A stretch of 64,000 nt of DNA, from NCBI GenBank assembly GCA_964035545.1, contig OZ037769.1, positions 9,587,429-9,651,428 of the forward strand, read 5' to 3'. This document shows positions 2,541 to 38,740 of the stretch, one piece after another. A model generated the notes under the pieces. The model saw only the letters and a list, made by a program, of their open reading frames with translations, searched no databases and had not been told where the DNA came from. Each line of letters begins with the position of its first letter. Position 1 is the stretch's first letter. Origin of the DNA: Bugula neritina. Its lineage: Eukaryota; Bryozoa; Gymnolaemata; Cheilostomatida; Bugulidae. The translations under genes were made by a program, and so were the position numbers.

Positions 2541-3599
2541 GGTCACGGAGGCTTTGAGCTCTGAGGCGGCGGCAGCCACTCTAGGTGTCAGCCGTTGTAC
2601 TTCGGTCTCTAGGTCGTAGATCCGTAGTTCGACTTCTTTTAGATTCCGAGCGGTAGGGGAGTGCCGTTTTGGGGAAGAGGAGTGCCAGCGTCGCTTGTTG
2701 GAAGGTTGTGAGGAAACGGGGGAGGGAGAGCGTCGTTTCCTAGGTACTTCAATCCTCTGTAGGACAACTCGTGGTAGGGAGGTGGGACGGGGTATAGTTT
2801 GTGCTGGTGGAGAATGAGGGAGTCTTGTGGGTTTTTTATATTTGGGAGGCCTCGGACACGGTTCGTATGTGATGAGGCGGGGAGATGGGAACCCTTGTTT
2901 CAGCCGCTCGAAACGGGGAAGATCTGTGATGAAGGGTTTTACTAGATTCAAGGAGGTGGAAAAGTTGTGTCGGTCCACGTCGTACAGATGTCCCACGTGG
3001 CACTCCATGGTGCGTTGATGTTGAAGAATGTAGTCCCTGTGGTAACTAAATTCACCACAGGGACAGAGGGTGGTTATGAAATGTTGCGGTGTGCGAACTA
3101 GCAAACGGCGATGAGTAGAAAAATGCTGTTGACACAGCCTGCAGGTGGTGCAATCGTCACTGCCACGGTGAGTTTAGATTTGCTCCTCTGTCTCTTGAGT
3201 AACCCAACTGTGTCGCTGTAGTAGTATGTCTGGCAGGGAGGTGGGAGGTGTGTCGTCGTTCCAAGCCAACTCCAACGGTGGCATGTCTCCGTAATCAGGA
3301 GAGCGAGTGGCGTCTAAAAGAGCAGAATTATTGTTAGATCGAATTTGATCTTTACAGCATAATTCTGATGACAATCGACTGTTACTAGTCTGAGAGTCAT
3401 TCATCTTTTTATACGGCACTCAAAAGACTGTGTCAGAACGTGTAAACTGACTGAGAGACATAGTGTCTAGCTCCAGATCTAGTAGACCGTCAGCCATTAC
3501 TATGTCCTCGTCGTCATTCACGTGTGACTCCGTCTCCAGTAACTGTGATTCAATTAGATCGACTAAACCAGAGTTAACTGAGGTGAGATCTATTTCCAT
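2541..3599 (-). pseudogene. Third ORF (C2H2 fingers + coiled coil), element C
   Basis: Reading on the minus strand from ATG at 3599, this is the env-position ORF of element C, homologous to 16652-17728 and 25330-26428. It has an acidic N-terminal part (DDEDIVMADGLLDLELD), a conserved SELCCKD block, two C2H2-type fingers near 3140-3030, a VDRHNF region, a Pro/Arg-rich linker and a C-terminal helix (LETEVQRLTPR). Segments stay in one frame but are cut by a TGA near 3420 and a TAA near 3174. In the first finger the first zinc His is Arg (LLVRTPQH), so this copy has probably lost that zinc site. The last codons are missing at the junction with B. Function is unknown; the layout suggests a nucleic-acid-binding, self-associating protein. 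Confidence 0.72.
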
Positions 3600-3624
3600 T
3601 AGTGGAGGTGTTAGATCTAGGCGA

Positions 3625-3631
3625 GCTTACC
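3625..3631 (-). promoter_or_regulatory. Candidate splice donor between pol and third ORF (element C)
   Basis: Minus-strand AAG|GTAAGC. The same donor-like word follows the pol stop in element E (26,446 region) and in D (CACAG|GTAAGC at 16,621). GTGAGT takes this position in D1 and in the 33-kb copy. Conservation is the only evidence. Confidence 0.4.
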
Positions 3632-3651
3632 TTGAAACCCGGTATTTGAAA

Positions 3652-4853
3652 TCATACTCGACGTTCAAGCTTGGATGTGGGTGGATTTAAAACACATCTA
3701 CCCTTGACTGCGTCAGCGAAAGAAAAGGCTGGACAGCGTGTTTGTTGTGCGAGACCGGAACTGTGTGCCCCGAGAGTAGTAATTCCACCCACTACTCTGC
3801 CTTCGCAAAACTTGGTTTTTCCGTGGTGTTCATAACTCCCACGTTTTGCCGCCAGTCTTTCCGTACGGCACCCAGCTGGACTTTCATACCTTCCGCTTGT
3901 AACGCGGTCGCATATGAAGTCTTGGAGATAGGCTAGGGGTCGTCTAGTATGTTGTCCCCTTTCAAGAGGAGGGGATGTACTAGCGGTAGACGCCGGGGAC
4001 GGTGGAAGGTTTGTTGGAGGATATGGGGTTGTGGCTGGGGAAGATGGGGCAGCTGGTGTGGGGTTTGGGGTTTGGGGTGTACTCACCGGTGGGTTGTTAC
4101 ACTCTACCGGTGGTATTTCCTGCCTTCTGTCAGCTGTCATCTCCTCTTCCCTTCTGTTTTCTCCGGATGGAGCCCCTCCCGTGGGGGGTTTTGCACTTCC
4201 GGAAGTATATTTAGTTCCGGAGGTGGTGGTGGTAGCCTTGGAGTCGGGCGGCTTGGTGCTGGGGGCAGTGGGCGCATCCCCGTTTGTAAGGGCGGCCTTT
4301 CTTGCCTCACCAAGTCCTCTGTCCGCGGCATGACCCATTCGTCACTGGGCTTATGCCGCCGCCGCCCGCGCATTGTTGTCTGCCTCCTGGTTTCTAACAA
4401 TGGGGGGGTTTCTCCCGCCGCACCCGAGCTAGCCCAATATGGTTTCAAGCGGGCTTCATTCTGGACAGATACTTGTCCAGACCGCTCCAGCTTGTAAGTG
4501 TGATTGAGCATTGCCTCAACTACTACGTAGGGTCCCACGAACTTAGGCTGTAATTTAGCCGCCTGCCCTCGACGCCTACGGTAGTTGATCATCCACACCC
4601 AGTCTCCAGCTTGATAGAGGGGTGGTTCATCAGCGTCTTCCTGTCGCACCTGCCACTGCTTCTCCGGCAGTATTTCGTGTGCGACTCTCAGACGCTCTAT
4701 CAATTCCCTGGCATACTCGTGGACAGAGTAGTCCGGTTCAGGAATATGATAGGTGAGGTGGTCTGGCACTCGCGTCTCTCGACCGAGCATCAAGAGGTTG
4801 GTAGTCTCGCCAGTACTAGTGTGTGGTGTACTGCGGTAGGTAGCAGAACACAC
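3652..4853 (-). pseudogene. Ty3/gypsy pol C-terminus, element C: integrase GPY/F domain and tail
   Basis: This is the integrase C-terminal part of minus-strand element C. It contains STGETTNLLMLGRET, the GDWVWMINYRRRRGQ strand, the GPY/F motif FVGPYVVVEA (which binds DNA and helps the integrase multimerise) and no chromodomain. A Pro-rich tail of about 200 residues follows, with ERGQHTRRPLAYLQDF and SCEHHGKTKFC blocks that are also conserved in D, D1 and E. The frame shifts once between about 4,140 and 4,340. The tail ends at 3652, shortly before the third ORF. The tail's role is unknown. Confidence 0.8.
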
Positions 4854-8620: not shown

Positions 8621-8671
8621 TTCAATCCATTTCACAAATATTCATTATGTCATATGATAGCGGATCGTGGG

Positions 8672-8939
8672 GTGAGTTAACTATGTCTTGATATGGAAAC
8701 TAGATTGCATCACTCACCTCCGACTCGTCTGAGTCAATTGAGCTTGAGATAGGTTAGTGAACTACAGTGGTAGGAACTCAGTTGACTTAGAGATTTCACA
8801 ATCTCACTGCAATATGTGTTCTGTTCCAACTACTCACTACCGTAAATCTCTACGAGTGGTAACTGAACGAGAAGTTGCCAGGCTGTCCAAGCCGACAACA
8901 CTACAGTGTAATGTACTAACACTGTTGAAACTCTTTCAG
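8672..8939 (+). other. Putative 268-nt intron upstream of third ORF (element D1)
   Basis: Donor GTGAGT at 8672 and acceptor CTCTTTCAG ending at 8939 enclose a stretch with no long ORF. The 33-kb copy has the same pair at 33593 and 33869, spaced almost identically (277 nt). The acceptor opens a frame that reaches the zinc fingers at 9101 and is phase-compatible with the gag donor at 11154. No transcript is visible, so this is inference. Confidence 0.5.
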
Positions 8940-9690
8940 GTTACACTCGACCCGCCGCAACCAGGGTACGGGATAGAGCACCTTCCGCTCCGCACCATGA
9001 AGAGTAAGCCAAAGGCAGACGACCTGAGCCACTGCGCCGCTGCTGTCGGTGGGTGTCGCCGGAGACGGAGAAGCAGATAGAAGCAGCCTGGGGACCCCAA
9101 GGAAGGACACAGTGTCAGATCTGCTACAAAGAGTGCCCGTCTCACCGCTCATTGAAGCTACATGTCATCGCACACCTCCTACTAACATTCTGTCTCTGCG
9201 GATACAATAATGTCTACCCCTATCCCGTCACCTGACATCGAGCAGCTGGCTGTTTCCCCAGAGAGAACTATGTGGTCGACGCTAAGCTCTACCCGGAATT
9301 TCTGACTCTAATACGGCCCTTAGTGAAGAAGGCAATGTAACTGGCCGTCCGAACCTCCGGCTTCCAGCATGTATTAGACTATGCCAGGCAACAGTCCCCA
9401 TTGGTGTCCGACCGTCCTCAAGTTGTGTATACCCCCAAAGAGTTCGCATACCCTGAAGAAGAGGAGGAAGAAATCGCACCTCCCCTCGTAGGAAACGAAC
9501 CCCATCTCCAGATCCTGCTCGCCTGGCCACAGTAGAAGAGCGTCTCCTTCGGCTGCAGGCTGAGTTCACCCAGTTAGCCCCGGATCTACTCAGTACTACA
9601 ACGGGACTTTACCAATTAAAAGGCTCTGTTGGCCGGATTGAAAGGAAATTACGTGCCCGTCAAGCCAAACATTGGCTTGCCAAACACTGA
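8940..9690 (+). pseudogene. Third ORF, element D1 (second subfamily of zinc-finger protein)
   Basis: Downstream of the acceptor the frame encodes a C2H2 finger, CQICYKECPSHRSLKLH plus VIAH (C-x2-C-x12-H-x3-H), starting near 9105. A second CLCGYNN unit with C-x-C spacing follows, then a FLTLIRPL motif shared with the other third ORFs. The C-terminal helix is ERLLRLQAEFTQLAPD and LKGSVGRIERK, ending in AKHWLAKH and TGA at 9688-9690. In-frame stops (TAA near 9004, TGA at 9233-9235) and shifts show decay. Fingers and helix are laid out as in D, but the sequence is clearly diverged, matching the 33.9-kb copy better. Confidence 0.68.
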
Positions 9691-10773: not shown

Positions 10774-11077
10774 TGTGGTGGCTCGTGGAGCTACCAGCAG
10801 CACAATACGCAGGGTCGCGTAATTGACCCGGAACGACAGCCAATTAGCGACTTGAGTAGTTAGTAGCAGTAGTAGTTTTCCCGCTGTTAGGCAGTCGAAG
10901 TTAGAGTGTTGAATAATCTAGATGTGTAGAATTATTGAATGTATTTGTATAGCTTTTGTAATGTGTTCTTGTGCTTAAAATATATACTCGTTCACTCGAC
11001 TTATCCTGGTGAAGTTCTCTAGCAAGTAATTAGACTCTCTGGATTGCATATCAACCCAAATACAAAAAATCATAACA
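10774..11077 (+). repeat. 5' LTR of element D (304 bp)
   Basis: TGTGGTGGCTCG to CATAACA, directly before the primer-binding site. The LTR should hold promoter and poly(A) signals, but no TATA box or polyadenylation signal can be assigned with confidence. Confidence 0.92.
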
Positions 11078-11078: not shown

Positions 11079-11096
11079 TGGTGGCAGCGGTGGGAT
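11079..11096 (+). promoter_or_regulatory. Primer-binding site, tRNA-Leu
   Basis: TGGTGGCAGCGGTGGGAT lies one base after the LTR. It is complementary over 18 nt to the 3' end expected for a eukaryotic tRNA-Leu (ATCCCACCGCTGCCA plus CCA). The same site occurs at 28381 and, shortened, at 33339. It primes minus-strand cDNA synthesis. Confidence 0.85.
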
Positions 11097-11110: not shown

Positions 11111-12064
11111 ATGGAGACTGAAAACGCTGGAATGCAACCACCGGCAGTAGAAGGTGAGCGTAGAGACAATGCTGTAGAGAGAATGCCTGTAAACCATGTA
11201 GTAGAAGAGCGAAGGGCTCCGCGGGAACTGACTGAAGACCGCTACCGGTTAAAGGCGCCCACCTTCACGGACGAAGAAGAGGTGGAGCAATTCATCCAAG
11301 AGTTTAGCAACGTAATGGACGTCGCCCAGTGGCCCCCTAAGGTGGCCCTGCTGAAGCTCAGAATGGCATGGATAGACAAAGCCAAGCCCTTTGGGCTGGG
11401 CGTAGACATCGATAATATCTTTGCTTCTCAGCGGGCCCGCTTCAGCCTCTCTGCTACAGATGCCCGGGCCCGACTGCAGAGGTTGCGGCGTGATCCTCAC
11501 ACCCCGCTACGGGAACATGCCGCCGCGGTCATGAAGCTGGCACAGATCGCATACAGCGACTTGCCTCCAGTCAACCGCGAGAGGTATACCCTTGACGCCT
11601 TCATACAATCTGTCACCGATCTGGGTCTCCACCACCAGTTTCTAGCTAGGGGAGTCACCACCATTGAAGATGCTCTGACAGAAGGGGAAGCTTACCTCCT
11701 GGCCAATCAGATGCATAAAAGTCGCGGGAACTCCCGTCAAGTGGAGGTAGACCGCGCGGACACGGCAGCGGGACAAGAGGAGGAAACCTTCGCGACGGCT
11801 GCCGTGGCCCAGTTAGCGACAGCATCGAAAGCCACTCAACTGACTGACATGCTGGCCAAACTGATAGCAACACTGACACCCCAAACCCAAGTAGGTACCG
11901 CCGCTGAGCTCGTACGGCCACCGGCGCCGCCACCGGGGGAAACGGGCAGTTTTTGCTGGGAATGCGGAAATCAAGGACATTTCCGCAGGTACTGTCCCTT
12001 CCTAACTACGGGGTTAAACTACCGCGGCCCGCAGATGTTCCCACCTCCTGCGGGCCAACAATGA
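11111..12064 (+). CDS. gag: Gag polyprotein, element D
   Basis: An intact 317-codon ORF starting 14 nt after the primer site. It would form the cytoplasmic virus-like particle that packages element RNA. Residues about 50-210 are a capsid-type helical region (EEEVEQFIQEFSNVMD, ARARLQRLRRDP, LAQIAYSDLP). A single CCHC zinc knuckle, CWECGNQGHFRRYC, lies near residues 283-296 (about 11,957-11,998). It aligns with gag at 28441. The 3' 112 nt overlap pol in the -1 frame and hold the frameshift signal. A consensus splice donor AAG|GTGAGC lies 43 nt after the ATG. The start is the first ATG after the primer site and the frame has no stop. Confidence 0.9.
   Translation: METENAGMQPPAVEGERRDNAVERMPVNHVVEERRAPRELTEDRYRLKAPTFTDEEEVEQFIQEFSNVMDVAQWPPKVALLKLRMAWIDKAKPFGLGVDIDNIFASQRARFSLSATDARARLQRLRRDPHTPLREHAAAVMKLAQIAYSDLPPVNRERYTLDAFIQSVTDLGLHHQFLARGVTTIEDALTEGEAYLLANQMHKSRGNSRQVEVDRADTAAGQEEETFATAAVAQLATASKATQLTDMLAKLIATLTPQTQVGTAAELVRPPAPPPGETGSFCWECGNQGHFRRYCPFLTTGLNYRGPQMFPPPAGQQ
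11151..11159 (+). promoter_or_regulatory. Conserved splice donor near gag start
   Basis: AAG|GTGAGC, cut after 11153, phase 1 relative to gag. The word recurs at the matching place in F (cut after 28471, also phase 1) and in the 33-kb derivative (cut after 33373). It could feed a spliced mRNA for the third ORF. Confidence 0.5.
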
Positions 12065-15000
12065 AACCTCCAGGGAAGAAAAAACGCAGGCCACCCAGAC
12101 GGGTACCGCGTGCTGGCAACCAAAAGTGGCAACAGCCGCGACGGACCAGCCAGGGGCTTCGCCCCGCCGCTACGTTTTCCATGCCCCTCCACAATCGATT
12201 CGAAGGGCTACCAGCCCGAGAATCTGGATGGGAGCCAGCAAAGGTAGCCGGAAACCTAGCCTCGGCACCTCCGAGGCCCCCTTACCACCATCCCAAGAGA
12301 CCTCCTTCGCGACCCAAAGCGAGGGAGGTACTCCCTGCGAGAGCAAGGCCTGAAGAGAGAGTTCAGGTGCGGCCTCATTGGAACAGCTATTTCTTGCCTG
12401 GTAAATTGGAAGGCAAAGCTGTTACTTTCCTCATCGATTCGGGCTGTACCACGAACCTCCTAAGTCGCCAACTCTTCGACACACTCAGTGCTAAGGTTAG
12501 GAGCGAGATGGAACCGTATGAGGGGGAGTATGGCACCCTAGCTGACGGGTCGAGCCTTCCCTTCTATGGTATAATTGAGCTGACGGGACAAGTCCGTGAT
12601 CAAACGATCCAAGAGACGTTTATCGTCAGTCAGCTCAAGGAAGGCGCCATCCTCGGGATGTCATTCCTGAAACGGCACGGATGTCACGTCGATTTTAGTA
12701 AATCTGCGATGGTGATGTCCGGGCGAGAACTCGCCTGCGTCGACAAGTTCGGCCGCCCTTTAGTAGAAGGCGTGCAGGTGGTACGCAACTGTACTGTACC
12801 AGGCCGCTCCCGGGCTACCATTCACTGCAGGGTGAACAATAGCCGGATCTTTGGACTCGGGGTAGTCGAAGGCGCGCACGAAAGGATCCAACTTGCCAGC
12901 AGTCTGAACCAGCTGACTGAGCAAGGGGAGATCTTAGCGCGGTGTGTCAACCCCTTTACCGAGTCTGTCAAGCTTCCGACTGGGTCTATGCTGGGCCGGT
13001 TCCACTCCATTCAGGAGGAGGACGTGGGCCCGTCGCTAGGTGATGCGACGGAGGCACCCCCTCGGCGCCCTACTCAAGGGCGAGGGACAGTCCCAACACA
13101 CATCTGGGAGTTATATGAAACAGCCAGTGGTGGCTGCGCGAGTAACAAGGATCGCCAAGCTATGGCGAAGTTGCTACGCGACTACGGTGATGTGTTCAAC
13201 AGCGGAGATCATGACGTGGGACTGACTGGAGTTGTCAGACACGAAATACCGCTGACTGCAGGGACAGTCCCTGTCCGGCAACCCACACGCAGGCTGGGGC
13301 CGGAGAAAGAGAAGGAGGTTAGCCGACAAGTACGGGATCTTCTGGACCGCGGCCTCATAGAGCCCGCCCATAGTGTGTGGAGCTCGCCGGTCGTACTGGT
13401 CCGGAAGAAAGACGGCAGTTGGCGGTTCTGTGTGGACTACCGCAAGCTCAATAGCGTAACCATACAGGACGCCTACCCTCTACCTCGTATTGACAAGTCA
13501 TTGGACACCCTAGCCGGCAGCAAGTACTTCAGTACGTTAGACTTGTTGAGTGGTTATTGGCAAGTTCCTCTGAGTCCCGACGCCCAGGAGAAGGTGGCGT
13601 TTATCACACGGGACGGTTTGTGAAAATGGAAGGTGTTGCCCTTCGGGTTAACTTCCGCCCCAGCCACCTTCCAGAGGCTGATGGAGCAAGTCCTCAGCGG
13701 GCTCCATTGGAAGACACTGCTGATCTACCTCGATGATGTCATCGTGATCTCCCCAGACTTCGAGACGCATGTCAGTCGTCTGCGGGAGGTCTTCGAGAGA
13801 CTCCGAGGTGATGGTCTTAAGCTCAAACCTTCCAAGTACGCTCTATATCAGCCGGAGGTCAAGTACCTGGGGCACGTTGTCGGTCGAAACGGCGTGGCAA
13901 CGGATCCCGAAAAGGTACGAGCGATAGAAGACTGGGTCACCCCCCAAGACTTGACCGGACTCCGGGCTTTCTTGGGGCTGGTAGGGTATTACAGGCAATA
14001 CATACCAGACTTTGCGGGCATAGCACAGCCGTTAAACCGGCTCACCGCAAAGGGAGTGACGTGGCAGTGGACCCCAGTCGAACAGGAAGCGTTCGATCGC
14101 CTCAAGGGTTGCCTCTCAACGGCACCCATCTTGGCCTACCCAGACCCCACTCTGGAGTACATCCTCGACACTGACGCCAGTGACCAGAATGTTGGCGCTG
14201 TGCTGTCCCAAGTGCAGGAAGGCCGAGAAGTAGTAGTAGCTTACTACAGCAAGTCTCTCTCACCCACTGAACAAAATTACTGCACTACCCGCAAGAAGCT
14301 GCTGGCAGTAATCAAGTCAGTGAAGCACTTCAGATCATACTTATATGGCAGGAAGTTCCGGCTGCGTACGGATCATGCCTCGCTGATATGGTTGTGCAAG
14401 AGAGCAGAGCCCTCCAGTCAGGTCGCCCGGTGGCTCGAAATCCTAGCTGAGTTCTCGTACCGGATCGAACATCGACCGGGCAAGAGACACAGCAATGCGG
14501 ATGGTTTGAGCCGGCGACCTGATGGAGGTTGCAAACAGTGTCTCAACATCGAGAGGAGGGACAGAGGTCCCCGCGATGCGAGCTGGAGACATTGGCTCAC
14601 CACGGAGCACCGTTTGACTGGGACCAGGGTCAACTCAGGCAGGAGATTGACGAGTCCCCGGAGGTTGTACAAAATCTCCGCGCCAATCCTGTATTGGCCG
14701 ATAACGTCCAGGAGCTGAAGAAGCTCCAGGAAGAGTTACCTGGGGTAGTGGCAGACATATATCGGGCCAAAAAGGACCGGCGACGACCCAGCGAGGAATG
14801 CATACGGCAGGGATGCGCCGAGTTCCGGCTATTCTGCTAGCGTTGGGACTCGCTGAGGATCGGGCAGGATGGTCTACTGACCATTTCTCTAGCTGCCAAC
14901 GGCAGACACCCAGAGAGGAAGAGGGTGGTCTGCACCAGCGCCATACGCCGCGAGTTAATTTGGGACACTCACAAACAGGCCCACGCAGGAGTCAAGAGAG

Positions 15001-16298
15001 TGATTTCGAAATTGCAACTCCGGTGGTATTGGCCCAAAATGGGGCGGGATGTCCGGCTCAGAGTAAAACAGTGTGAAATCTGCCAGGCCAGCAAGCATGG
15101 CCGTCTCCCTGGTGAAGCAGGACGGAGGAGGCTATATGCTGGAAGGCCGTGGCAAGTATTAGCTGTTGACCTGGTCGGACCCATGCCCCTGACCCCCAGA
15201 GGCAATAGTTGGATCTTAGTACTGACCGACCACTTTACTAGGTGGGCAGACGCTCTGGCTATCCCAGATGCGTCAGCCCCAACAGTGGCCAGGGCGCTAG
15301 ACCAACATGTATTCTGTTATTTCGGTCTCCCCAAACAGATACACTCTGATCAAGGCGCTCAGTTCCAGTCTCAACTGATGAGCGACCTTTGTCGCCTCTG
15401 GGGAGTAAATCAGAGCAGGACAACCCCCTACCATCCCCAAGGTAACGGGGTGGTGGAGCGCAATAACCGAATGCTAGGTGATGCGCTCCGGAGTCTCCTC
15501 CTTGGACGCGGTCAAGAGGAATTGGACACGGTGTTGCCGCAAATCATGCGTGCATACCGTAGCACCCCACACACCAGTACTGGTGAGACCCCAAACCTCT
15601 TAATGCTCGGGAGAGAGACTCGTGTCCCCGACCATCTCACCTACCACGTTCCAGCGCTAGACAACTCGATTCATGAGTATGCCAGTGAACTAGTGGAACG
15701 GATGAAGGTCGCACACGATATACTGTGCGAATAGCAGTGGAAGGTGCGACACGAAGATTCCGAGGAACCACCCCTCTACCAGACGGGAGATAAGGTGTGG
15801 ATGGTCAATTATCGTAGGCGTCGTGGACAGGCGGCTAAGCTACAGCCTAAGTTCGTGGGACCCCACGTGATCGTCGAGGCGATGCCCAACCATACGTACA
15901 AGAATGAGCGCTCAGGACAGGTGTCTATCCAGAATGAGTCTTGCTTGAAGCCGTATTGGGCTAGCCTTGACGCAGTGGGAGAAGCCCCCCCGTTGTTGGA
16001 GCCCAGGAGGCAGACAACAACACGCGGGCGACGGCGGCATGGACCTGAATATGAAGTAGTCATACCGCGGGAGGAAGACTTGGTGAGAGATGAGCGACCG
16101 CTTTTACCAACAGAAGCGCGTCCGCCACCGCCAAGTCTGATTCCATCACTTCCAGAAACCGAGCCGGTTCCGGAAGTGCAAACCCCCACGGAGGGAGGGG
16201 CTCCATTCGGAGAACAAGAAGAAATGACCACTAACGGTGAAGTAGAGACGCCACCAGAGGCCCCTACTAATAAACCGGCGAGTTTGTCACCCCCCTAG
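11953..16298 (+). pseudogene. pol: Pol polyprotein, element D (broken)
   Basis: Domains in order: protease with LIDSGCTTN (Asp at 12436), a spacer of about 200 residues, RT (VLVRKKDGSWRFCVDYRKLN, YLDD at 13726-13737), RNase H (LDTDAS, RTDHAS), integrase zinc domain (HKQAH, CEICQASKHG), DDE core (AVDLVGPM near 15,165; IHSDQGAQF near 15,345; GVVERNN near 15,450), a GPY/F domain (here FVGPHVIV) and a Pro-rich tail. It is entered from gag by -1 frameshift. Breaks: TGA 13621-13623 (Trp site), a 1-nt loss near 14,568, TAG 14838-14840, TAG 15732-15734, and a shift near 16,290 after which the tail continues to about 16,600 (DFVCDCIKSGAHES). No chromodomain is seen. Confidence 0.92.
12013..12056 (+). 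promoter_or_regulatory. -1 ribosomal frameshift signal between gag and pol
   Basis: The heptamer G_TTA_AAC (12013-12019) is in the gag frame exactly as X_XXY_YYZ requires. A 6-nt spacer follows, then a perfect 9-bp stem GGCCCGCAG (12026-12034) with CTGCGGGCC (12048-12056) around a 13-nt loop. Slipping back one base enters pol (GTT AAA CTA). GUUAAAC is an established slippery heptamer type. It lies inside the gag-pol overlap, so position, spacing and frame all agree. Confidence 0.85.
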
Positions 16299-16620
16299 AA
16301 CGGGGACAACGTACGAGGAAACCCCCACCATATTTAAAAGACTTCGTATGTGACTGCATTAAAAGCGGCGCGCATGAAAGTCAAGGGGAAAACCGTACGG
16401 GAAAATGTTGGAGTTACGAGCCCCACGCAAATATCAACTTTTGCGAGGGCGGAGTAGTGGGAGGAATTAATGCGCATAAAGCAAATAGTTCCGACCTCGT
16501 GCCACAGAAACGATGCCCAGCCTTTTCTTACGCTGACATCGCCAAGGGCAGACGTACCTCACAATTAGCTCCAACCCTTACCACGAACATTGAGTATGGA
16601 AACTAATACCGAGTTCACAG

Positions 16621-16627
16621 GTAAGCC
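16621..16627 (+). promoter_or_regulatory. Candidate splice donor before third ORF (element D)
   Basis: CACAG|GTAAGC just downstream of the pol tail and 30 nt before the third-ORF ATG. It is at the homologous position in all five copies. What it splices to is not clear in this subfamily. Confidence 0.38.
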
Positions 16628-16651
16628 AGTATAAGTCTTGTATTCCTATCT

Positions 16652-17728
16652 ATGGAAACTGGCTCGATGCCAGTAAATTCTGAGCTAATCCATCGGATTG
16701 AATCAGAATTACTGGGGACCACGTTTCACGTGAATGACGACGAGGACACAGTAATGGCCGACGGTCTGTTAGACCTAAAGCTAGACACTGTTCTTGGTCA
16801 GTCCACGCGTGATCCACTGGTCTTTCGAGTGCCTTTTAAAAGTTGTGACTCTCAGACTAGTAACAGTCGACAGCCACCAGAATTATGTTGTAAAGATCCA
16901 CCGCGATCTAACAATAATTCTACCTTTGTAGACGCACTCGCTCCCGTCTCTCCGGGCATGCCCTCCCTAGACATGGCATGGGACCCAGAGCCGACCCCAC
17001 CAACTTCTACAACTAGACAACTGCCACACCAGTTAGAAGCGACCTCCAGCTGAACTACTCCCGCCACGGAGACGGAGATCAAGAAATATAGAGGAGATGA
17101 CAATAACCGGGAGTGCCGCCTATGTCAACAGCGGTTTACAACACACCGTAGATTGAGAGTCCACTTACTGCAGCATTTTATTACAACGTTCTGCCCCTGC
17201 GGGGAGTATAGTTACAATAGAGACTACGTGTTGCGTCATCAACGCACTATGCACTGTTTTCAGGGCCACGTGTATGACGTGGATAAATCTTCTTACTCAG
17301 CATTCCTCGAAATCATCAGACCCCTTATCACAGACTCAGCTCGGCTCTCTCGCCTGGAGCAAGGTTTCCCTCCTCCTCGACCCATCATCCCTGGACCAGT
17401 AGACAAACCTTCAAAATCATCTAACTCCCCACCTCTCAATTCTGTGCGTCGACCGCAGACACTCCCCCGTGTCGTGTTACAGAGGGTTGACACACAGACT
17501 TACACACTTCCTCCCCCGCTCCCATCCACAGAACGGAAGAGACACCGGCATCAACAGATCCTCTCCCGCTCATCCCCTCTGGCTCGCAACCTACGGGAGG
17601 TCGAGACTAGGGCAAACAAATTAGAACAAGAGGTGTATAGACTAGCCCCCCGTATTCACGCAGCATCCAGTGAGCTCCGGTCGCTACAGGAGTCCATCAG
17701 ACGGATGAAACGAGCAGCCCAGGATTAA
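16652..17728 (+). pseudogene. Third ORF, element D: two C2H2 fingers and coiled coil (one stop)
   Basis: A 358-codon frame in the env position, interrupted only by TGA at 17051-17053. Residues 1-130 are acidic and Ser/Pro-rich (DDEDTVMADGLLDLKLD, PPELCCKD). Finger 1 is CRLCQQRFTTHRRLRVH plus LLQH (C-x2-C-x12-H-x3-H, from about 17,122). Finger 2 is FCPCGEYSYNRDYVLRH plus QRTMH (C-x-C-x12-H-x4-H). Next come a VYDVDKSSYSAFLEIIRPL block, a Pro/Arg linker with LPRVVLQRV, and a C-terminal amphipathic helix (LREVETRANKLEQEVYRL, then SELRSLQESIRRMKR). No signal peptide or membrane segment is seen, so it is not an envelope protein. A regulatory or nucleic-acid-binding role is inference. Confidence 0.75.
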
Positions 17729-18019: not shown

Positions 18020-18325
18020 TGTGGTGGCTCGTGGAGCTACCAACAGCACAATACGCAGGGTCGCGTATTGACCCGGAACAATGTACTCAGCCAATTAGCG
18101 AGGCCGCTAGTTAGTAGCAGTAGTTAGCTTCGCGCTACTAGTCAGTCGTGAATAGTGTAATAGATTAAAAAGACGTATAGATTTCTGAATGTTTTATACC
18201 GTTTTTATTATGTATTACTATGCTTAAAATATACTCTTATTAACTCGGCTTATCTTGGTGAAGTTCTCACGCACTAAATAGACTCTCTTTATTGCACATC
18301 AACCCAAAAACTGGAAATTACAACA
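18020..18325 (+). repeat. 3' LTR of element D (306 bp)
   Basis: TGTGGTGGCTCG to TACAACA. It aligns end to end with the 5' LTR at 10774, with scattered differences and small indels. Confidence 0.92.
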
Positions 18326-18914: not shown

Positions 18915-19164
18915 TGTAGTGGGGCACGGGATATGCGCCCCACGTGTCCCCTGGCCAATTAGAGATACGTCAGGTGATACCCCCAGCGATGCGTAACATA
19001 TAGGATAACTGTTATTAGAGAGCGTGCTAGTAACTAGTGTGGATGTAACTGATTAATCGGAGCGTTTCATGTGTAACTTTTTTTAGTATGTAACTGAAAA
19101 TAAATATATTTTAATCCTATCACAAGCCCTGTATTGCTGCGGATAATTGACTCAACCTGTAACA
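18915..19164 (+). repeat. LTR family B, 5' copy (about 250 bp)
   Basis: Starts TGTAGTGGGGCACG and ends CTGTAACA. It matches the reverse strand of 24711-24949 over most of its length (GCGCCCCACG, CAATTAGAGATACGTCAGG, GATAATTGACTCAA). It is followed by gag-protease remnants in the same orientation, so it is read as a 5' LTR. The outer ends are less sure than the core. Confidence 0.75.
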
Positions 19165-20095
19165 TCCGCAAATCGTGAGCCCAAGCCAACCACGTCTAGG
19201 AGAAGACCCAGATAACGTCCAGGAAGGCATCCATAGAGCCTGCTGGCGCTAAGTGGCAGGCACATTAGAGTCAGAGGTCGACAGACCTACCCAAACCTTC
19301 TACCCGACCACTTGGTACCCAGACAAAGTCTGCAAAGTTTTCCCAATCTTTCGGCCTGGCCACTCCGCAACCGGTTAGCGAGGTTGCGAGGTTATGAAAG
19401 AGAATGCAGCTTACTTGCAAGAGTTCCCCAAGCTACCTTCCCAACCTTATAAAACCCGCCATAAAGGCGAAAAGAAGGCCTGCGTAAGGACTCAACAAGT
19501 GTTTCCCCCAGAGACTGACCGCCCCAAAAGCACCCAGCCATACGGAAGCAACTACTTCCTGTCCAGAAAACTTTTAGCTAAAGCTGCCACATTTCTACTG
19601 GACACAAGGTGCACTACAAACCTACAAACCTACACTCTTGGCGCCCGGGAGGGGGCGAGCCTCAAGCCGTATGAAGGTGCACATGGTACTTTGGCGGATG
19701 AATTGTGTATTTCTTTCTACAGCATCATTATACTACCTTCATCATTAGCCGTGTGAAGGAAAACGCCATCTTGGGGATGCCATTTCTGGAGAAACACCGC
19801 TGTCATATGGATTTCCAGAAGTTGGCGAGGGTGATAGCTGGAAAAGAATTTGCTTTTGTTGACAAGTTTGGCAGGTCCTTGGTGGGCGGAGTCCAGGTAG
19901 TGCGGGACTGCACGGTTTCAAGAAGATCTCAGGCAACTCTGTGATGCAGAGTCAACTGCAAGAAGATTGCTGGTCTGGGAGTGGTGGAGAAACCGCCAAC
20001 ACATGAAACGAGTCAAAGAAGAGCTGAGTGCACTTTGACGGCGGGTGGACCACCTGAAAGGCTCTGATGGCAGATTTTCTCATTAAATTCTACTT
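19165..20095 (+). pseudogene. Ty3/gypsy gag-protease remnant with third-ORF tail
   Basis: Degraded internal sequence of the LTR-B element. Protease is recognisable (FLLDTRCTTN in place of DSGCTTN, so the active-site triad is damaged; then YEGAHGTLAD, ENAILGMPFLEKHRC, DKFGRSLVGGVQVV, near 19,540-19,920). After about 19,990 it jumps to a short stretch resembling the third-ORF C-terminus (LKGSDGR-like, near 20,050). RT, RNase H and integrase are absent, so a large internal deletion has occurred. Confidence 0.75.
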
Positions 20096-20569
20096 CTTCT
20101 CTCAGTAACATTGCTTACTTGACATTCTATTACAAATTGTGCTAGATGTGTATTTTGTGGTATATTTCTTGTTTTTTTGTAATAATATTCTTGTTTTCTT
20201 TTGTTTTTTGTATATTTCCCACAGAGCACAGAATTGTTTTTATTTTGCTTCCCCTTACCATTTTTTTGTTTTATTCTGGATACTTTATGTGAATCGACTT
20301 TTGGCCAAAGTTCAGTGATTTCGGAGTTCAGGAAAAGCGATTTTGTCTAAATGTCGGATAATTTTGGCACCGAAACTCCGACATCCGCCTATGCAAACTT
20401 TAGCCAAATGTCCGACCAGCTTAGGAAGAGGAGTTTTTGTTAGTATAAAAAAGGGCGAGTTCCCAGTGTTTTTTTGTCAACCACTGGAGCTCGTCTAAGA
20501 CACATCAAAAAGCAAATAAAAAAATTATTAATTTCAAGTTCAAAGAAGACTCTTATTTCATAGTAATAG
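20096..20569. other. No recognisable gene
   Basis: T-rich spacer between the gag-protease remnant and the solo LTR. No feature could be supported. Confidence 0.5.
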
Positions 20570-20907
20570 TGTTATGATTTTCAGTTTTTGGGTTGATGTG
20601 CAATCAAGAGAGTCTATTTATTTGCTAGAGAGCTTCACCAGAATAAGTCGAGTTAATACGAGTATATTTTACGCACAAGAATACATCACAAAAGCTATAC
20701 AAATACATTCAGTAATTGATACATCCATACAATTTACTACGCTATTCTCAACTAACTAACAGCGGGAAACTAACTACTGCTAACTGCGTTCAGCATCGCT
20801 AATTGGCTGTCCATTGTTCCGGGTCAATTACGTGACCCTGTGCTGTATCAGTGGGGGAAATAATATTTCCCCGTATTACGCTGCTGGTAGCTCCACGAGC
20901 CACCACA
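20570..20907 (-). repeat. Solo LTR, family A, with 4-bp target duplication
   Basis: On the minus strand it starts TGTGGTGGCTCG (at 20907) and ends ATAACA (at 20570). No internal sequence is attached. ATAG flanks both sides (20566-20569 and 20908-20911), the expected 4-bp target duplication. It has the extra 35-bp stretch of the D1 LTR. It is the product of LTR-LTR recombination. Confidence 0.88.
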
Positions 20908-22880
20908 ATAGGCATGCAGATTGCTTCATCTATTTCCTAAGCACCACCCAAAAACCCTACGATATTCCCTAATGTTGCCACTCTTAATAAATCACCCTGA
21001 CTTCTGGGATATCGACAAACCAGAATGATTAACTAAATAGTCTAGAAGTAACCTCCAATTATCTTTCACTCATTACACTTCGAGGGGTGGCCACGCAATT
21101 TTTTTAGAAATGGAGAGTTTTAAGGGTCCTAATTAATCTGTGAAAACTCTAGACTGTTCTGCGCACCCAGTTAGCCACAAAAGCGCTTCAAACTTTTAAG
21201 AGGAATTAGGAGTTGTCTTCTCTCAATGTTTTTGTGAATTGGCTAAATATCTTGGAACTATGAAAGCTAATTTATTTTATATAAGCAAAATAATTTTGCT
21301 GACAGTTATAAATACTTTTTTCACTTTTCTGTTATAAAAACTCTAAATTTTTTTGTCTACCCAGTTAGTCACGAAAGCACTTTAAACTTTTGCAGGAGTT
21401 GTTTCCCCACAACTTTGTCCAAATATGTTCCGTATTATCTTGAAATTATTAAAGCTAATTTATTATATATACAAGCAAAAACTTTTGCAGATAATCATAG
21501 ACGTGTTTTTCACTTCTCTGAGTTTCATTCTAGTGATTTTCTTGTGAAAACATCTAAAAAATAAGGACTAAATGGACGAAAACAAGCAAAGGAATGGGTT
21601 TTTTAGTTATAAGGCAAACATTATTATTGAACAGCTATAAAAAAAGCCAAATTATAAGTAAATATGTGTCTGATAATGATTTTCTTTATGATTTTTATTA
21701 TAATAACTATTTTTACAAAAAAGTAATGAGAAGCATGAGCAGGTTGGTCTGGACTCCGGAAGATAATATTTTAAATGTGTACGATTGAGCTTTGCCAATA
21801 AATTTAAGCTGAACTATATATACATAGGCAATTTGGTTTTTAAAACAATGCTTTTGGTTAAAATGCATATTTTTATACCTTCTTAATATAATGACTCTAG
21901 AGTCAATTTAGCTCAGTTATAGTTACAGAAGAAATACCCTAATGCTTTCCTATAATTTAAAATATATATGGTTATATTTAAGCCACCCATTAGAAAAATG
22001 ATCTTGGGTTGCCTTATTCAAAAATCATAAGCATGTACTTTTTTTCATGTGTGCCATTTGTCACAAAAATAATAATTTCTTATCAGCAAATAAAACAAGC
22101 TGCATTTTGCTCCATTTTGTGTGAAACATAAAGAAAAAAGACTTTAGAGAACGATATCGTTATTAAAGTTGTTGCATACCAAAAAAAAGTGCATTCAGCT
22201 AGAATTTTTCAAACATGGTGGAATTCCTAAGAAAACAAAACTCAAATGTTTATAATTAGATCACGAGGAAGCAGGTACACCAACTTTGTTACATGCAAAA
22301 TATCTTATGAACATCATAAGCCCAAGTGTAATAATCAAATCTCAAGACACTGAAGTTTTCATCTATTTGCAAAACATTACCTTCTTGCCAATTATATTTT
22401 TTCACGGGTGTGGTAATCATGGTGTCATCCCAGATAGAGACTAGGCTAAATTTCCTACTTAGACGCTAGTTATTTATTTTGGTAAAATGTATTTTTATAT
22501 GTGCAATTTATTTTAATATTATTGAAATATATATGTATATTAAAATAAACTTGGATCAATTGCTTGTTATTTAGCGCATAAATAAATTCCTTTGATCTGC
22601 ATTAACCTACTAAGTTTGTATATTTTAAACATCTTGCATGTTGTTTGAAAAGATATTTTGTTAATATTAAGTATCCATTAAAGATAGTATCTATTATTAA
22701 TGTATTACTACTTCTTAATGTCTCACACAAATTCGTAAAAATAATAGAATATTATTTTAGATAATTTATGTTAGCTACTATAGCTATTAGCATATTAGCT
22801 ATTTAGCAATAAATACAACAGTTATATAGGTAATATTAATATATATGATAACAAAATAAAAATAGGGAGGAAACCATAAT
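20908..22880. other. AT-rich stretch without gene
   Basis: No ORF with a recognisable product. A segment near 20,960-21,010 (TTGCCACTC context) resembles the reverse strand of 24,290-24,365 and the segment at 43,080-43,130. These may be degraded ends of an old transposon around 20.95-24.37 kb. Confidence 0.45.
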
Positions 22881-23590
22881 CATATTAGGTATTTGGAAGT
22901 CAACATTGCAGCAAATAAATCCGGACTGCAGTTGTGTGCAGCACTTACTAGATTTCATGCTTTAACAGGTTGTGATTCGACCATAGTTCTTTTTATGAAA
23001 AAGCATAGCGCACAGCCTACTACTCCCTTTTGAGAAAATATTCAGAATGTATGGGAAGCTTTGAACACCTTTGGAAGTATTTCAAGCTGCCAGCGATTAC
23101 AGAGGCTGAAGTAGAACAATTTGTCTATAAACTTTATGGAGCAGGAAATTTAAACATAGATGATGTCCAATACACTGTATTTTGTTCACCGTCTAAAATA
23201 ACTCAATACAGTTTGCCTCCAACAAAAGATGAATTAAGTTTGCACGCAAAAAGAGCAAGTTATCAGGCAGCCATTTGGAGAAGAGTGACAACAGCTTATA
23301 TTGATGCACCACCCCAGAACATCATGGGTAGATTGTTGAGAATCATGGCAGCATAAATATAAAGTGGATGATTCAAGCTTCCGAACCTGAACATGTATGT
23401 TGCAAAGTTTAAACTGCTCCTATAAGACCGGCTGCAACATATCAAGATGTGAATGTCAGAAGTCTCAAGTGCAGTGCATGCACTGATGTTTGTCAATGTA
23501 AGGATTGTCTGAAAAGAAGGGCTATATTGGGGAAAAAGAAGCTGATGAGACTGACGACCGTGACAGTGATGGCGAGAATGCTTTTTCATA
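22881..23590 (+). pseudogene. Remnant of repeat-encoded Cys-rich protein (HALTGCD family)
   Basis: Fragments in three frames resemble a protein widespread in invertebrate repeats. CAALTRFHALTGCDS lies near 22,940, an ECMGSFEHLW to RRVTTAYID block at 23,030-23,330, and a Cys-rich end CSACTDVCQCKDC near 23,470-23,510. The middle ORF of 108 codons includes LPPTKDELSLHAKRASYQA. Frameshifts separate the parts. I recognise the motif set but cannot give the parent element a name with confidence. Confidence 0.55.
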
Positions 23591-24662
23591 ATGAAGCACT
23601 ATTTTTAGACATTTGTTATATATTTTGCTACTACCAATTTGATTTTGATCATTTCTCATGCTTCTGTTTCTCTAAATAATTTTACAGAATATTGTTGATT
23701 TTTGCAAATGTTTAACGGCTACTGACAGACTATAGCAAATGATTCACTTGGGCTGTGCTTAAAAAATTTCAATATTTATTCATTTCAACATTTATTTTGT
23801 GCTATAATTTTATAAATATAGTTTTTTCATACATCAGCATGACTTTGTTTTTGTTTTTGTACAAATAACTTGGTCATACAATTAATCTGCATGCTTATGC
23901 AGCATGCAATATGTCGATTCATAACAAACATATATGTTTATATAAACAACTTGGTTTTAATTTGAGATAGCCTCTTGTGCGCAGTCTTTAAATTCAGTAT
24001 CAGCATAGAATTCTAAGTAAGAGGCAATTTTTTTTGGTATTTCAGCAAATATTTTTCTTCAACATAGCTTGGTAAAATTGGATACTATTTTGCACAATCC
24101 ACATTTCTTTTTATTACCCATCCAAAATGCCGATTTGTTTTTTGCAATATCTTGAGTTTGGGTAGAGATAGAATTCTAGAGTTTGTAGATTCAGAATCAG
24201 CACAAAATTTTGATGTAGAAACAACTTTTTTGAGTGGCCACCTAAAAAAGTGTAATAAGCCAATTTTTTGAGCACTTTTTGGGAGATTACTTCTAGACTA
24301 AAACACTATTATGTTAATGAGCTCAGAGATGATCGATATCGAGAGTGGCGACTTTAGGGCATAAGAAATCATATAAATTATAAAGGGAATTTATTTTGCC
24401 ACTTTTGATATTTGATTATTTTTTTATTTCATGTGTACATTTTTTAGTTTTGTTTATTGGCATAGTTTTTTACACATTTTTCATTCATATAAAATAAAAG
24501 GCAATTTTAAAGCTGACTCCTTCGCGTAAAAAAAGCTATACAATTTAAGTTTCGCTGGAATTACAACGTGAATATGAATAAAATAATGCTTGTAATAACC
24601 ATTTTACCCAAAATGCATTACAATTGCTATAAATGAAAGATAAGTGAATTGGATGCAAATAG
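23591..24662. other. No recognisable gene
   Basis: AT-rich spacer. The only notable part is 24,290-24,365, related by inversion to 20,960-21,010. Confidence 0.5.
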
Positions 24663-24710
24663 TGTTGTGATTTACACAATGTTAATGCGTGGTCCCTAGC
24701 TTGTGATTTT

Positions 24711-24949
24711 GAGTCAATTATCCGCAGCAATACAGGGCTTGTGATAGGATTAAAATATATTTATTTTCAGTTACATACTAAGAAAAGTTACACATGAAAC
24801 GCTCCGATTAATTAGTTACATCCTCACTAATTACTAGCACGCTCTCTAATTACAGTTATCCTATATGTTACGCATCGCTGGGGGTATCACCTGACGTATC
24901 TCTAATTGGCCAGGGGACACGTTGGGCGCATATCGTGTGCCCCACTACA
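24711..24949 (-). repeat. 3' LTR of element E (LTR family B)
   Basis: On the minus strand it starts TGTAGTGGGGCACACG at 24949, directly after a polypurine tract (GGGGGGGGCGG, reverse of 24950-24960). Homology with 18915-19164 ends at GACTCAA (24711). The true end may extend to 24663, where minus-strand CACAACA stands. Confidence 0.75.
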
Positions 24950-25329: not shown

Positions 25330-26428
25330 CTAGGCGTTTCTCTTCAGTCGAGCCACAGAGTCACGGAGGGCCCGGAGTTCGGAGGCGGCGGCAAATATCC
25401 TAGGTGTCAACCTTTGCACTTCTCTCTCCAACTTATGTATCCGTTGCTCCGTCTCTTTTAGGTTCCAGGCGCAAGAAGAGTGGCGGTTAGGAGATGAAGA
25501 TATCCAACGCCGCTTACGAGAGGGTCGGGGAGAAACGGGGAGAAACGGGGGGAGAGGGACGCCATCGTTGTGGCACTTCGATGCGTTGTAGCACGACTCT
25601 GGGTATGGAGTTGGGACGGGGGACTGTGTGAGCAGGGGGTGACGGACGGGGTGTTTGGGGTTTCTTAAATCCCGGGGGTTTGGGGCAGGGTCCTTGTGTA
25701 ATGACACGGGGCGCGAGGAACTCTTGGCGCAGCCGTTCATAGCAAGTCGGGTCTGAGATAAATGGTCTGATGAGGTCGAGGAAATGGGGGAAAGAGGGTT
25801 TGTCGACTTCGTAGAGATGTCCAACATGACACCCCATGGTCCACTGGTGGCGAAGGATGTAGTCCCTGTGGTAACTATATTCACCACAGGAACAGAAGGT
25901 GGTGATATAGTGTTGGGGGACGTGGACTCTGAGTCTGCGAGGAGTTGTGAAGTGGAGCTGACACAGACGGCAGGTGGTGCATTGATCATCGCCTTTATAT
26001 TCCTAAATGAGTGCCTCGGTGTCCTTGGTAATTTAGCATGACTGGGTTAAGAGTATTTCCGGCAGCGTGACGGGGGTAGGTTCCTCATCCCAGGCCATCT
26101 CCAATGGCGACATGTCATGAGGGAGAGAAGAGCGAGTGGTATCTAAAAGAGCAGAATTATTGTTAGATCGAGTGTGATCTTTACAGCATAATTCTGATGA
26201 CAACCGACTGTTCCTAGTCTGGGAGTCATGCATCTTTTTATACGGCACTCGAAGCACCGTGTCATGACGTGTAAACTGACTGAGAGACATAGTGTCAAGC
26301 TCCAGATCTAGTAGATTGTCGGCCATTGTTATGTTCTCGTCGTCTTTCACGTAACACTCAGTCCCCAGTAGTTGTGATTCAATCAGAGAGATTAAATCAG
26401 AACTAGCTGATGTTAGACCTGCTTCCAT
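25330..26428 (-). pseudogene. Third ORF, element E
   Basis: Minus strand from ATG at 26428. It has an acidic N-terminus (MADNLLDLELDTMSLSQ), SELCCKD, finger 1 CRLCQLHFTTPRRLRVH, finger 2 FCSCGEYSYHRDYILRH, VGHLYEVDKPSF, LPRVVLQRI-like linker (IPRVVLQRIEV), and a C-terminal helix (KETEQRIHKLEREVQRL, ASELRALRDSVARLK) ending at 25330. A TAG lies near 26,009 between acidic part and fingers, and the frame shifts near 25,540. Parts before the shift share one frame. It is closest to the copy in element C. Confidence 0.75.
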
Positions 26429-26493
26429 GGATGGGAATGTTAAGTCAAAGCAAGCTTACCTGGGAACCTGGTATTTGAAATCATACTCAGCGT

Positions 26494-28440: not shown

Positions 28441-29286
28441 ATGGCCGAGAGTACAGCTTCAAACGAAGAAGGTGAGCGAGACACTATCATAAGCCCTCTC
28501 GAGGTCGAAGAGGAGGCGTATAAACATACAGTAGAGGCTCCCATCTTCACGGGCCTAGAAGATGTTGAACAATTTATTCAGGAATTCAATGAAGTTGTAG
28601 CCATTACAAGATGGCCGCCGAGAGTAGCCCTGATAAAGCTACGGATGGCACTGACGGAACAAGCCAGGCCGTACGGGCTGAAATCCAGCGTAAACGAGAT
28701 CTTTGCTGCGCTGCGGGCCCGTTTTAACATACCTGCCGTAGTTGCCAGGGCCCGTTTACAGGGACTGCTCCACAGAACATGTACACCACTCCCGGACCAC
28801 GCTACCCTAGTGAAGAGACTGGCACAGATCGCGTATGGCGACTTGCCAGAAACACACAGGCAGCGCTATACGTTCGAGGCTTTTGTACAGTCAATCAACC
28901 ATTTGGGCCTCCACCACCAGTTACAAGCGAGAGGAGTGACCAGGATAGAGGCTGCACTACAGGAAAGCGGGGCTTACCTGGGGGCCGAACAACTCTATCG
29001 AGTCACTGGAGGATCAGACCACCCGGTCCGAATAGCTGCCGCTACCACTAGCCCCTCCTTGGAGACGGAGGTCGATCGCTTAATGACTATGCTGGAACAG
29101 TTGGTGGCGACCATAACGTGTAGCAGACCCGCGAGATCCAGGAGACCAGAAGAAAAAGCTCCCCGACCAACTGCCCTATGCTGGAGGTGCGGCACGCGGG
29201 GACACCTCTGCTCAAGTTGTCCACAACCTAAGAAACCTGAAACCCCACAATTCGCGGAAGCCCTCAAAACTCCGCGGACCGGATAA
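28441..29286 (+). CDS. gag: Gag polyprotein, element F
   Basis: An intact 281-codon ORF beginning at the first ATG after the primer site. It aligns with D gag (LEDVEQFIQEFNEV, ARARLQGLLHR, LAQIAYGDLP, FVQSINHLGLHHQ) but is clearly diverged and shorter between capsid and knuckle. The CCHC knuckle CWRCGTRGHLCSSC is near residues 247-260. Pol follows in the -1 frame and is open only from about 29,241. No canonical slippery heptamer is obvious in the short overlap, unlike D. The frame is intact, so a capsid protein could still be made if transcribed, but the 5' LTR is nearly gone. Confidence 0.85.
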   Translation: MAESTASNEEGERDTIISPLEVEEEAYKHTVEAPIFTGLEDVEQFIQEFNEVVAITRWPPRVALIKLRMALTEQARPYGLKSSVNEIFAALRARFNIPAVVARARLQGLLHRTCTPLPDHATLVKRLAQIAYGDLPETHRQRYTFEAFVQSINHLGLHHQLQARGVTRIEAALQESGAYLGAEQLYRVTGGSDHPVRIAAATTSPSLETEVDRLMTMLEQLVATITCSRPARSRRPEEKAPRPTALCWRCGTRGHLCSSCPQPKKPETPQFAEALKTPRTG

Positions 29287-33545: not shown

Positions 33546-33592
33546 TAATCATTCCTAGTGCTCCAGTATGCCCGGCGACTCCGGTTTCCGGG

Positions 33593-33869
33593 GTGAGTTA
33601 TCTATTATGCTTCTAGTACAGAAACTGAATTGCATCAGCCAACTCTGAACTCAGTCAAGTTAATTAGACTGGATATCCGGCTAGTGAAAACAAGTGGCAA
33701 GAATACGGACTGACAGGGGAGTCTTGGTGATTCTAAATTGCGATTCGTATTCTCGGTCAATCATTCACTGGTATTGATCTCGCGAGTGTTAACCGAGAAA
33801 AAGTTAACTGTCAGGCTGTCAGGCGGTACCTTAGTGTAGGCTTGAATTATTACTGTTGTGCTCTTTCAG
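33593..33869 (+). other. Putative intron upstream of third ORF (33-kb copy)
   Basis: GTGAGT at 33593 and CTCTTTCAG ending 33869, 277 nt, homologous to 8672-8939. A phase-1 leader joined here would read GTTRPTAMDSR and enter the third ORF in frame. Confidence 0.5.
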
Positions 33870-34580
33870 GTACCACTCGCCCTACTGCTATGGATTCTAG
33901 GACACCTATCCCTACCTGGTCACACGACCACGTACCCAGTCAACCCCTCTTCTCCCCTCATCAACTACAAAGAAGGAGAGTTGCCAGCGCCACTGTGCCG
34001 TCGATGCCGGTAGGTGCCGGTAGGTGCCGCCAGCCACAGAAGAGAAAATTAAGGCCCCGATGGAAGTACCAGGTGCCAATTATGTCATGAGAATTGTCCG
34101 TCTATTTGCTCGTTGAAGGCCCATGTGGATGCCCAGTAGTTGCTAGTCTTCTGCCTCTGTGGACAACATAATGTTCACTCTTACGCCATTATCGAGCACC
34201 AGGCTCGAGCCGGTTGTTACCTCGGTGCCACATATACCGTAGACGAAAACAACTACCAAGACTTTTTTCCTATTATATGACCTCTAGTTTATGAGGGTCT
34301 ACTCCTAGCTGTCCTTTTCCAAGGGTTCTAGACGCTACAGGAATATGCCAGTCATAAATCGCACACCATCTCTAGGCAACCTAGGCCAACACCTCCACAG
34401 AGTGAACCGTTAACCCAAAACAGTGTAGAAGAAGATGTGGATCTACCCCACAGAGATTCTCCATCTATATCAGAGCGTCTTAGTTGCTTATCCACAGTAG
34501 AAGAAAGACTCAGCGGTTGCAGGCAGACTTTACCCAATTGGTGCCCTGACTCTTAACTACTACTACCAGGCTATATCAAT
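33870..34580 (+). pseudogene. Third ORF, 33-kb copy, 5' part (split by a transposon)
   Basis: An open frame with ATG at 33890 encodes a basic N-terminus. A one-base insertion near 34,067 then shifts it out of the finger frame (CQLCHENCPS, KAHVDAQ with the last His changed to Gln; FCLCGQHNVHSYAI with EHQ). The AGCYLGATYTVDENNYQDFF block and coiled-coil start follow, with several stops. At 34580 it is interrupted by the Harbinger-like element. The continuation LKDSVSRIKRR to the stop at 38818-38820 resumes at 38741. It groups with the D1 copy. Confidence 0.65.
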
Positions 34581-38738: not shown

Positions 38739-38740
38739 AT

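Follow-up and report, generated by a model that had tools for sequence, protein, structure and literature searches.

The stretch of Bugula neritina DNA considered here (contig OZ037769.1, positions 9587429–9651428; 64,000 nucleotides (nt), referred to as the window) comes from a genome of 215.8 Mb and carries several Ty3/gypsy elements, which are broken. In one of them the env position, between pol and the 3′ long terminal repeat (LTR), is occupied by a third open reading frame, ORF3 (16652–17728, plus strand; 357 codons in its long reading). This copy contains a single in-frame stop (17051–17053), and the rest is in one frame. What kind of gene, if any, does this frame represent? An earlier note on the window had proposed a conserved gene, intact in the ancestor, for a protein with two C2H2 fingers and a coiled coil that was not an envelope.

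A DNA search of the genome gave 276 candidate places, and the 40 best-matching ones (the window copy included) were scored and all read. An unbroken frame of 357 codons was found in 20 of the 40, one of which (L040) was without the start ATG. Outside the window, then, unbroken copies are frequent; the earlier note had proposed an intact ancestral gene from broken copies. Pooled over the 20 unbroken copies, which belong to the window copy's subfamily (A), the NG86 ratio of nonsynonymous to synonymous divergence (dN/dS) was 0.20, where, as in the comparisons below, the pairs are not independent since the copies share descent. By region it was 0.29 (codons 1–146), 0.12 (fingers), 0.23 (linker) and 0.15 (coil), and the shifted-frame controls gave 1.36 and 1.28. 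Codon models gave an omega of 0.24 without a kappa parameter and of 0.33–0.34 with it, and at equal kappa an omega of 1 was worse by 54 log units (log likelihood −3716.0 versus −3769.8). The end of pol in the same 20 copies gave 0.30.

Two further subfamilies behaved in the same way, with dN/dS of 0.23 in subfamily B (8 copies) and 0.12 in exon 2 of subfamily C (9 copies), and shifted-frame controls of 1.11–1.83. These values, none of them near 1, are those of a conserved gene in the env position. We concluded that ORF3 is a functional gene, with purifying selection acting strongly on it in all three subfamilies.

The gene does not consist of the long frame alone. In the window copy a mini-exon made of an ATG, 7 codons and a G (16596–16620, plus strand) is followed by the donor GTAAGC, a phase 1 intron of 311 nt (16621–16931) with a CTAAC branch-like site and the acceptor CTACCTTTGTAG, and exon 2 (16932–17728). 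An ATG followed by a GTRAGY-type donor exactly 25 nt on, the ATG included, was present in 38 of 40 A copies (as ATG-N22-GTRAG), 8 of 8 B copies, 8 of 9 C copies and the single copy designated D. Dinucleotide shuffles of one representative per subfamily produced this string 10–15 times in 5000.

At the other end, a pyrimidine-rich acceptor lies at codon 94 of A, reading TTTGTAG in A, CTCTTTTAG in B and CTCTTTCAG in C and D. Among 40 A copies, the AG is missing from L007 alone. A CTAAC-type site upstream of the acceptor was seen in A, B and C and was absent in D. A single B copy (L069) and a single C copy (L062) also deviate from the motif. The site just before ORF3 had been considered as an acceptor as well; this reading was given up, since in C and D the GT there is not immediately preceded by an AG.

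The mini-exon ends in phase 1, and exon 2 then enters the frame of the fingers in every copy read for this (5 of A, 7 of B and 9 of C), although stops or an altered ligand lie along the way in some. The C intron is 265–269 nt long with stops in all frames (8 copies counted). Exon 2 of C has no ATG ahead of the fingers in any of 9 copies, and L066 and L067 have an in-frame ATG inside the intron. Most A and B copies do have ATGs in exon 2 ahead of the fingers, so the argument for splicing from the missing ATG is limited to C.

The junction predicted for C was searched for in the genome. Four places were found, with two mismatches each, and the reversed pattern gave none; the donor-spanning pattern of unspliced C copies had 166 matches. 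The four places correspond to the C element minus the 265-nt intron of L067, with an ambiguity of one base because a G is common to both edges. Their upstream 0.8–1.2 kb is collinear with the element, and the mini-exon ATG opens a frame that continues through the fetched part of exon 2. They are most simply interpreted as reverse-transcribed RNAs with the intron removed. The exon 2 stretch of one of them (L078) is 99% identical to that of the intron-bearing L067, and those of the other three about 89–90%, which suggested that more than one intron loss is possible. A metagenome protein, P0085, reads MYPNTKFQ/DTTRSP, which, as judged from the protein sequence, is an A/B-kind mini-exon of eight residues continued directly by exon 2. 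With the patterns used, spliced junctions of the A type (from the mini-exon or from gag) and of the B type were found at no place in the genome. At the level of sequence, ORF3 is joined by intron removal in subfamily C in this genome and in one A/B-type metagenome protein.

Translation from the ATG at 16652 through a retained A intron would cover codons 1–93, with the first base of codon 94, and give an acidic N-terminus. Across A, B and the metagenome proteins related to them, the intron region reads as an open frame, has an ATG of its own and encodes an acidic N-terminus that is conserved. This suggested that A and B are likely to make two isoforms, by intron retention and by intron removal. 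For A these would be of 357 residues and of 272 residues (8 plus codons 94–357), respectively.

A donor-like site also lies near the start of gag. In the window element it follows 14 codons and a G, as GAAG/GTGAGC (11153/11154), in phase 1; in a further element of the window the gag start (28441–28471, plus strand) has an ATG, 9 codons and a G before the same string (28471/28472), again in phase 1. The string was present in 19 of 20 fetched gag regions of the A family (all but L059, in which gag was not matched) and in 2 of 2 of the C family; GAAG/GTGAGCG follows 14 codons in A and C and 10 in the element at 28.4 kb. This consensus-like donor is kept near the gag start (window 11153 and 28471; L041–L060, L079, L080), and gag downstream diverges between the families. 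Metagenome protein P0148 has 14 residues ending in NE and then the exon 2 motif DHTR. It is possibly the reverse-transcribed product of a splice from a gag exon to ORF3, which we take as no more than a lead; no such junction was found for A in the genome. The earlier note had overlooked this donor-like site as well as the intron and the two likely isoforms.

Synonymous divergence was lower in codons 1–94, at 0.069 versus 0.240 in A and 0.190 versus 0.724 in B. An intron-specific constraint was the first reading. In A, however, the pol end is low as well (0.033), so that the effect may instead be due to recombination or to some other cis element. In the coordinates of L015, an unbroken genomic ORF3, the stretch over which A copies diverge less than downstream is about 900–1860, covering the pol end and the ORF3 intron, and again recombination or a cis-acting element may be involved. 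A long +1-frame ORF over exon 2 of subfamily B (25330–26046, minus strand; L069–L074) was rejected as a gene because the shifted frames of B give dN/dS of 1.11–1.27.

Exon 2 encodes an LP..W motif, fingers 1 and 2, a helical block, a Pro/Arg linker and a coiled-coil helix. Finger 1 (C-x2-C-x12-H-x3-H, with a conserved F and L core) has the classical C2H2 ligands. Finger 2 is C-x-C-x12-H-x3-6-C; a fourth ligand is present and is a C, so it is C2HC. Of the layout first described, both fingers and the coil stood, with finger 2 corrected to C2HC. Both finger patterns were found in 19 of the 20 unbroken A copies. Among database relatives of at least 200 amino acids (aa) they were found in 59 of 92 (P0001–P0126) and 25 of 38 (P0127–P0204).

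The fingers are separated by a spacer of five residues (YITTF-like) between H and C. No TGEKP-like linker, a trait of classical DNA-binding C2H2 proteins, was found between them. In a structure model they form a tandem beta-beta-alpha pair that superposes on DNA-bound C2H2 pairs; the matches were weak. Such a modeled pair would be the point of likeness to C2H2 transcription factors (Kaiso, ZBTB, SALL and others), from which ORF3 differs in having just two fingers, an atypical linker, a C-x-C..H..C finger 2 and the extra helical block. In the model the C-terminal part forms a helix of 50 residues. When the seven possible heptad registers were compared, the best one placed on a/d positions 11 of the helix's 12 Leu, Ile, Val, Met and Phe residues in L015, 11 of 13 in P0002, 8 of 11 in P0093 and 12 of 17 in P0127.

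The Kyte-Doolittle maximum over 19 residues was 0.56–0.82 in the 20 unbroken A copies, none of which has a membrane-like segment, and no signal-like start was seen among those listed. Both results agreed with the earlier view that this is not an envelope. Hydropathy was under 1.6 in 61 of 63 relatives of at least 250 aa. The exceptions have a hydrophobic segment far behind the fingers (P0013) or near the N-terminus (P0103), both stretches being unlike the family by eye. Pfam returned no family at cut-off in the window ORF3 pieces. For the 27 members of A1 the matches were all weak, some to zinc fingers, some to coiled coils and others scattered; neither set matched a DEDDy or GDSL catalytic domain.

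Protein searches gave 73, 119 and 78 matches (the second scored the 7990 candidates with most words in common), amounting to 204 different proteins, nearly all from JGI collections and mostly from metagenomes. None of the 204 returned carried a name or a precomputed Pfam domain, and the searches returned no named homologue. They fall into an A/B-like group (about 46–77% identity to L015), a second group (about 35–45% to P0001; for example P0093) and a C-like group. The first two share N-terminal motifs (DxLLDLExD or DFLLDQDV; R.PYK.M), LP..W, both fingers, the helical block and the coil. P0092 and P0100 start with a pol-tail-like R..RPPxYL motif in frame with ORF3, which ties them to LTR elements. 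ORF3 is not confined to one genome; no named host relative was among these proteins, a host origin itself being outside this test.

The element that carries ORF3 (all parts on the plus strand) has a 5′ LTR (10774–11077, TG...CA) and a 3′ LTR (18020–18325), with boundaries matched by eye. A primer binding site (11079–11096) is complementary to the 3′ end of a tRNA-Leu(AAG) of the same genome (L081, identified by ARAGORN). A gag region (11111–12064) has one C-x2-C-x4-H-x4-C knuckle (Pfam zf-CCHC, E value of only 0.14). Its pol (11908–16606), read from ORFs and Pfam, encodes protease, reverse transcriptase, RNase H and integrase, and has stops and frame changes in the window copy. The Pfam order over 11908–15731 is gag-asp_proteas, RVT_1, RT_RNaseH and Integrase_H2C2/rve. 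By its LTRs, tRNA-matching primer binding site and pol order, the element is a Ty3/gypsy (Metaviridae) LTR retrotransposon. In many A copies of the genome the pol frame ends 17 nt ahead of the ORF3 ATG, and ORF3 is set apart from pol because it lies in another frame with its own start. Copy L016 (1–2574, minus strand) is an exception among A copies, its pol end and ORF3 forming a single open frame of 857 codons.

With L015 as the query, tblastn located five ORF3 copies in the window, as previously counted: 3599–2553 (minus strand), 9023–9364 (plus), 16652–17722 (plus), 26428–25333 (minus, in two pieces) and 33927–34328 (plus). Two belong to subfamily B, both on the minus strand. One (2541–3655) has its mini-exon at 3655–3631, a 317-nt intron at 3630–3314 and exon 2 from 3313; the other (25330–26484) has them at 26484–26460, 26459–26143 (317 nt) and from 26142. 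The C copy (8647–9690, plus) has a mini-exon at 8647–8671 with donor GTGAGT, a non-coding intron (8672–8939) with TACTAAC and CTCTTTCAG, and exon 2 from 8940. Copy D (33568–34580, plus) has a mini-exon at 33568–33592, also with GTGAGT, an intron at 33593–33869 ending in CTCTTTCAG, and exon 2 from 33870, which is decayed, with the fingers in another frame, and split by a DNA transposon. All five copies had been described as having the same order with an acidic or Ser/Pro N-terminus. Two of them, 8940–9690 and 33870–34580, have no acidic N-terminus; both start exactly at the splice acceptor, with the intron before it.

The transposon inside copy D (34567–38752) has 758-nt terminal inverted repeats, 98% complementary, and by eye a transposase-like ORF (36900–37694). 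Elsewhere in the window, a 241-nt inverted repeat, 97% complementary, flanks about 5.5 kb (18915–24949). Pieces of Tc1/mariner-like transposase and an RTE-like reverse transcriptase were recognized by eye from the ORF list at 55017–56057 and 62379–63414 on the minus strand.

Literature searches of open-licence PubMed Central text listed no LTR element with the layout of ORF3; the earlier note had been unable to name one. Small spliced accessory genes that act on their own LTR or RNA occur in complex retroviruses (Tat/Rev, Tax/Rex, foamy virus Tas); we know of none with a zinc-finger/coiled-coil layout. ORF3 differs from them in belonging to a Ty3/gypsy element and in having a putative function.

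The closest described case is CERV of the Caenorhabditis elegans LTR retrotransposon Cer1 (PMC10309623). CERV has 517 aa and five exons, of which exons 1–3 are in the gag frame, with predicted H, M and G domains and a possible C4-type finger (PMC10309623). Like ORF3, it is a non-envelope protein encoded between pol and the 3′ LTR by a spliced mRNA, with a candidate leucine zipper, a basic run resembling a nuclear localization signal, and zinc-binding cysteines; it is also an element-encoded regulator, as is proposed for ORF3 (PMC10309623). ORF3, unlike CERV, has two exons, a C2H2 finger 1 and a C2HC finger 2, and the likeness is one of position, splicing and general layout. Bdelloid rotifer LTR elements (Vesta, Juno, TelKA) likewise have diverse extra ORFs downstream of pol; these ORF3s are DEDDy exonucleases, GDSL esterases or envelope-like (PMC5408684). 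The present ORF3 had no match to such domains.

On balance, we think that ORF3 is an accessory gene of this Ty3/gypsy lineage, probably for a dimeric, nucleic-acid-binding nuclear regulator of its own element. The mini-exon (ATG and 7 codons) is spliced over an intron of about 265–317 nt to the exon for the fingers, helical block and coil, as the joined sequences of subfamily C and P0085 show; in A and B, and in similar metagenome proteins, leaving the intron in would give a longer isoform with an acidic N-terminus from the intron-internal ATG. The coil may serve dimerization and the Arg/Lys-rich linker nuclear entry, and the tandem fingers may bind the element's own LTR DNA or genomic RNA. 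The protein would regulate expression of its own element; it could be a transcription factor, an anti-silencing factor or, like CERV, an exporter of unspliced RNA. The choice between splicing and retention would set the ratio of the isoforms, and feedback is possible. A further proposal, to which we give somewhat less than an even chance, is that ORF3 is a widespread, undescribed regulatory gene acting as an alternatively spliced zinc-finger/coiled-coil switch, in which the retained intron supplies an acidic effector domain, splicing gives the short isoform, and a gag-exon fusion is possibly a third. These retrotransposons would then have a regulatory programme resembling that of complex retroviruses.

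Action on LTR DNA and CERV-like export of RNA are close rivals. A DNA-binding transcription or anti-silencing factor for its own LTR is possible, if on the doubtful side; the acidic N-terminus of the long isoform would then be the activation domain, and the short isoform would act as a competitor. The superposition of the modeled finger pair on DNA-bound C2H2 pairs, the acidic, Leu-rich N-terminus confined to the long reading, and the coil with its basic linker are consistent with it; the weak structure matches and the non-canonical finger 2 and inter-finger linker weigh against it. A CERV/Rev-type exporter, with fingers binding unspliced genomic RNA, a multimerizing coil and a leucine-rich stretch of the long isoform (MADGLLDLELD) recruiting an export receptor, we consider rather unlikely. 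Its position, splicing and zinc-finger-plus-zipper layout do parallel CERV (PMC10309623). In addition, the unspliced RNA of an element with an intron needs a route of export, many A/B-type relatives long enough to cover that region have a MADxLLDLExD-like stretch, and the phase 1 donor-like site in gag fits exon 2, CERV sharing exons with gag. The leucine-rich stretch is, however, absent from subfamily C and would be lost on splicing, and finger 1 is a classical C2H2 finger, a kind that more often binds DNA.

Quite unlikely is a role away from expression, as an integration-targeting, tethering or nucleocapsid-like helper on the pre-integration complex. The pol-tail-like sequence in frame with ORF3 in P0092 and P0100 and the 17-nt distance from pol in many A copies would allow a link to pol in some elements, but the separate frame and own start of ORF3 in many A copies (L016 excepted) argue against it. 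For a divergent envelope there is the env position and nothing else, and the low hydropathy of all 20 unbroken A copies and of nearly all the relatives makes it extremely improbable. A chance open frame, or a passively decaying fragment of a host gene, would fit the broken state of every window copy; it is hardly credible against dN/dS of 0.12–0.23 in three subfamilies, controls above 1, and 204 relatives.

An ORF in the env position of an LTR element often goes unexplained or is labelled env-like. Here such an ORF is a conserved, spliced, non-envelope gene with definable domains, and its three sequence groups of relatives can now be searched for in any genome. Should ORF3 prove to regulate the element that carries it, regulatory genes like those of complex retroviruses would have arisen more than once outside the retroviruses.
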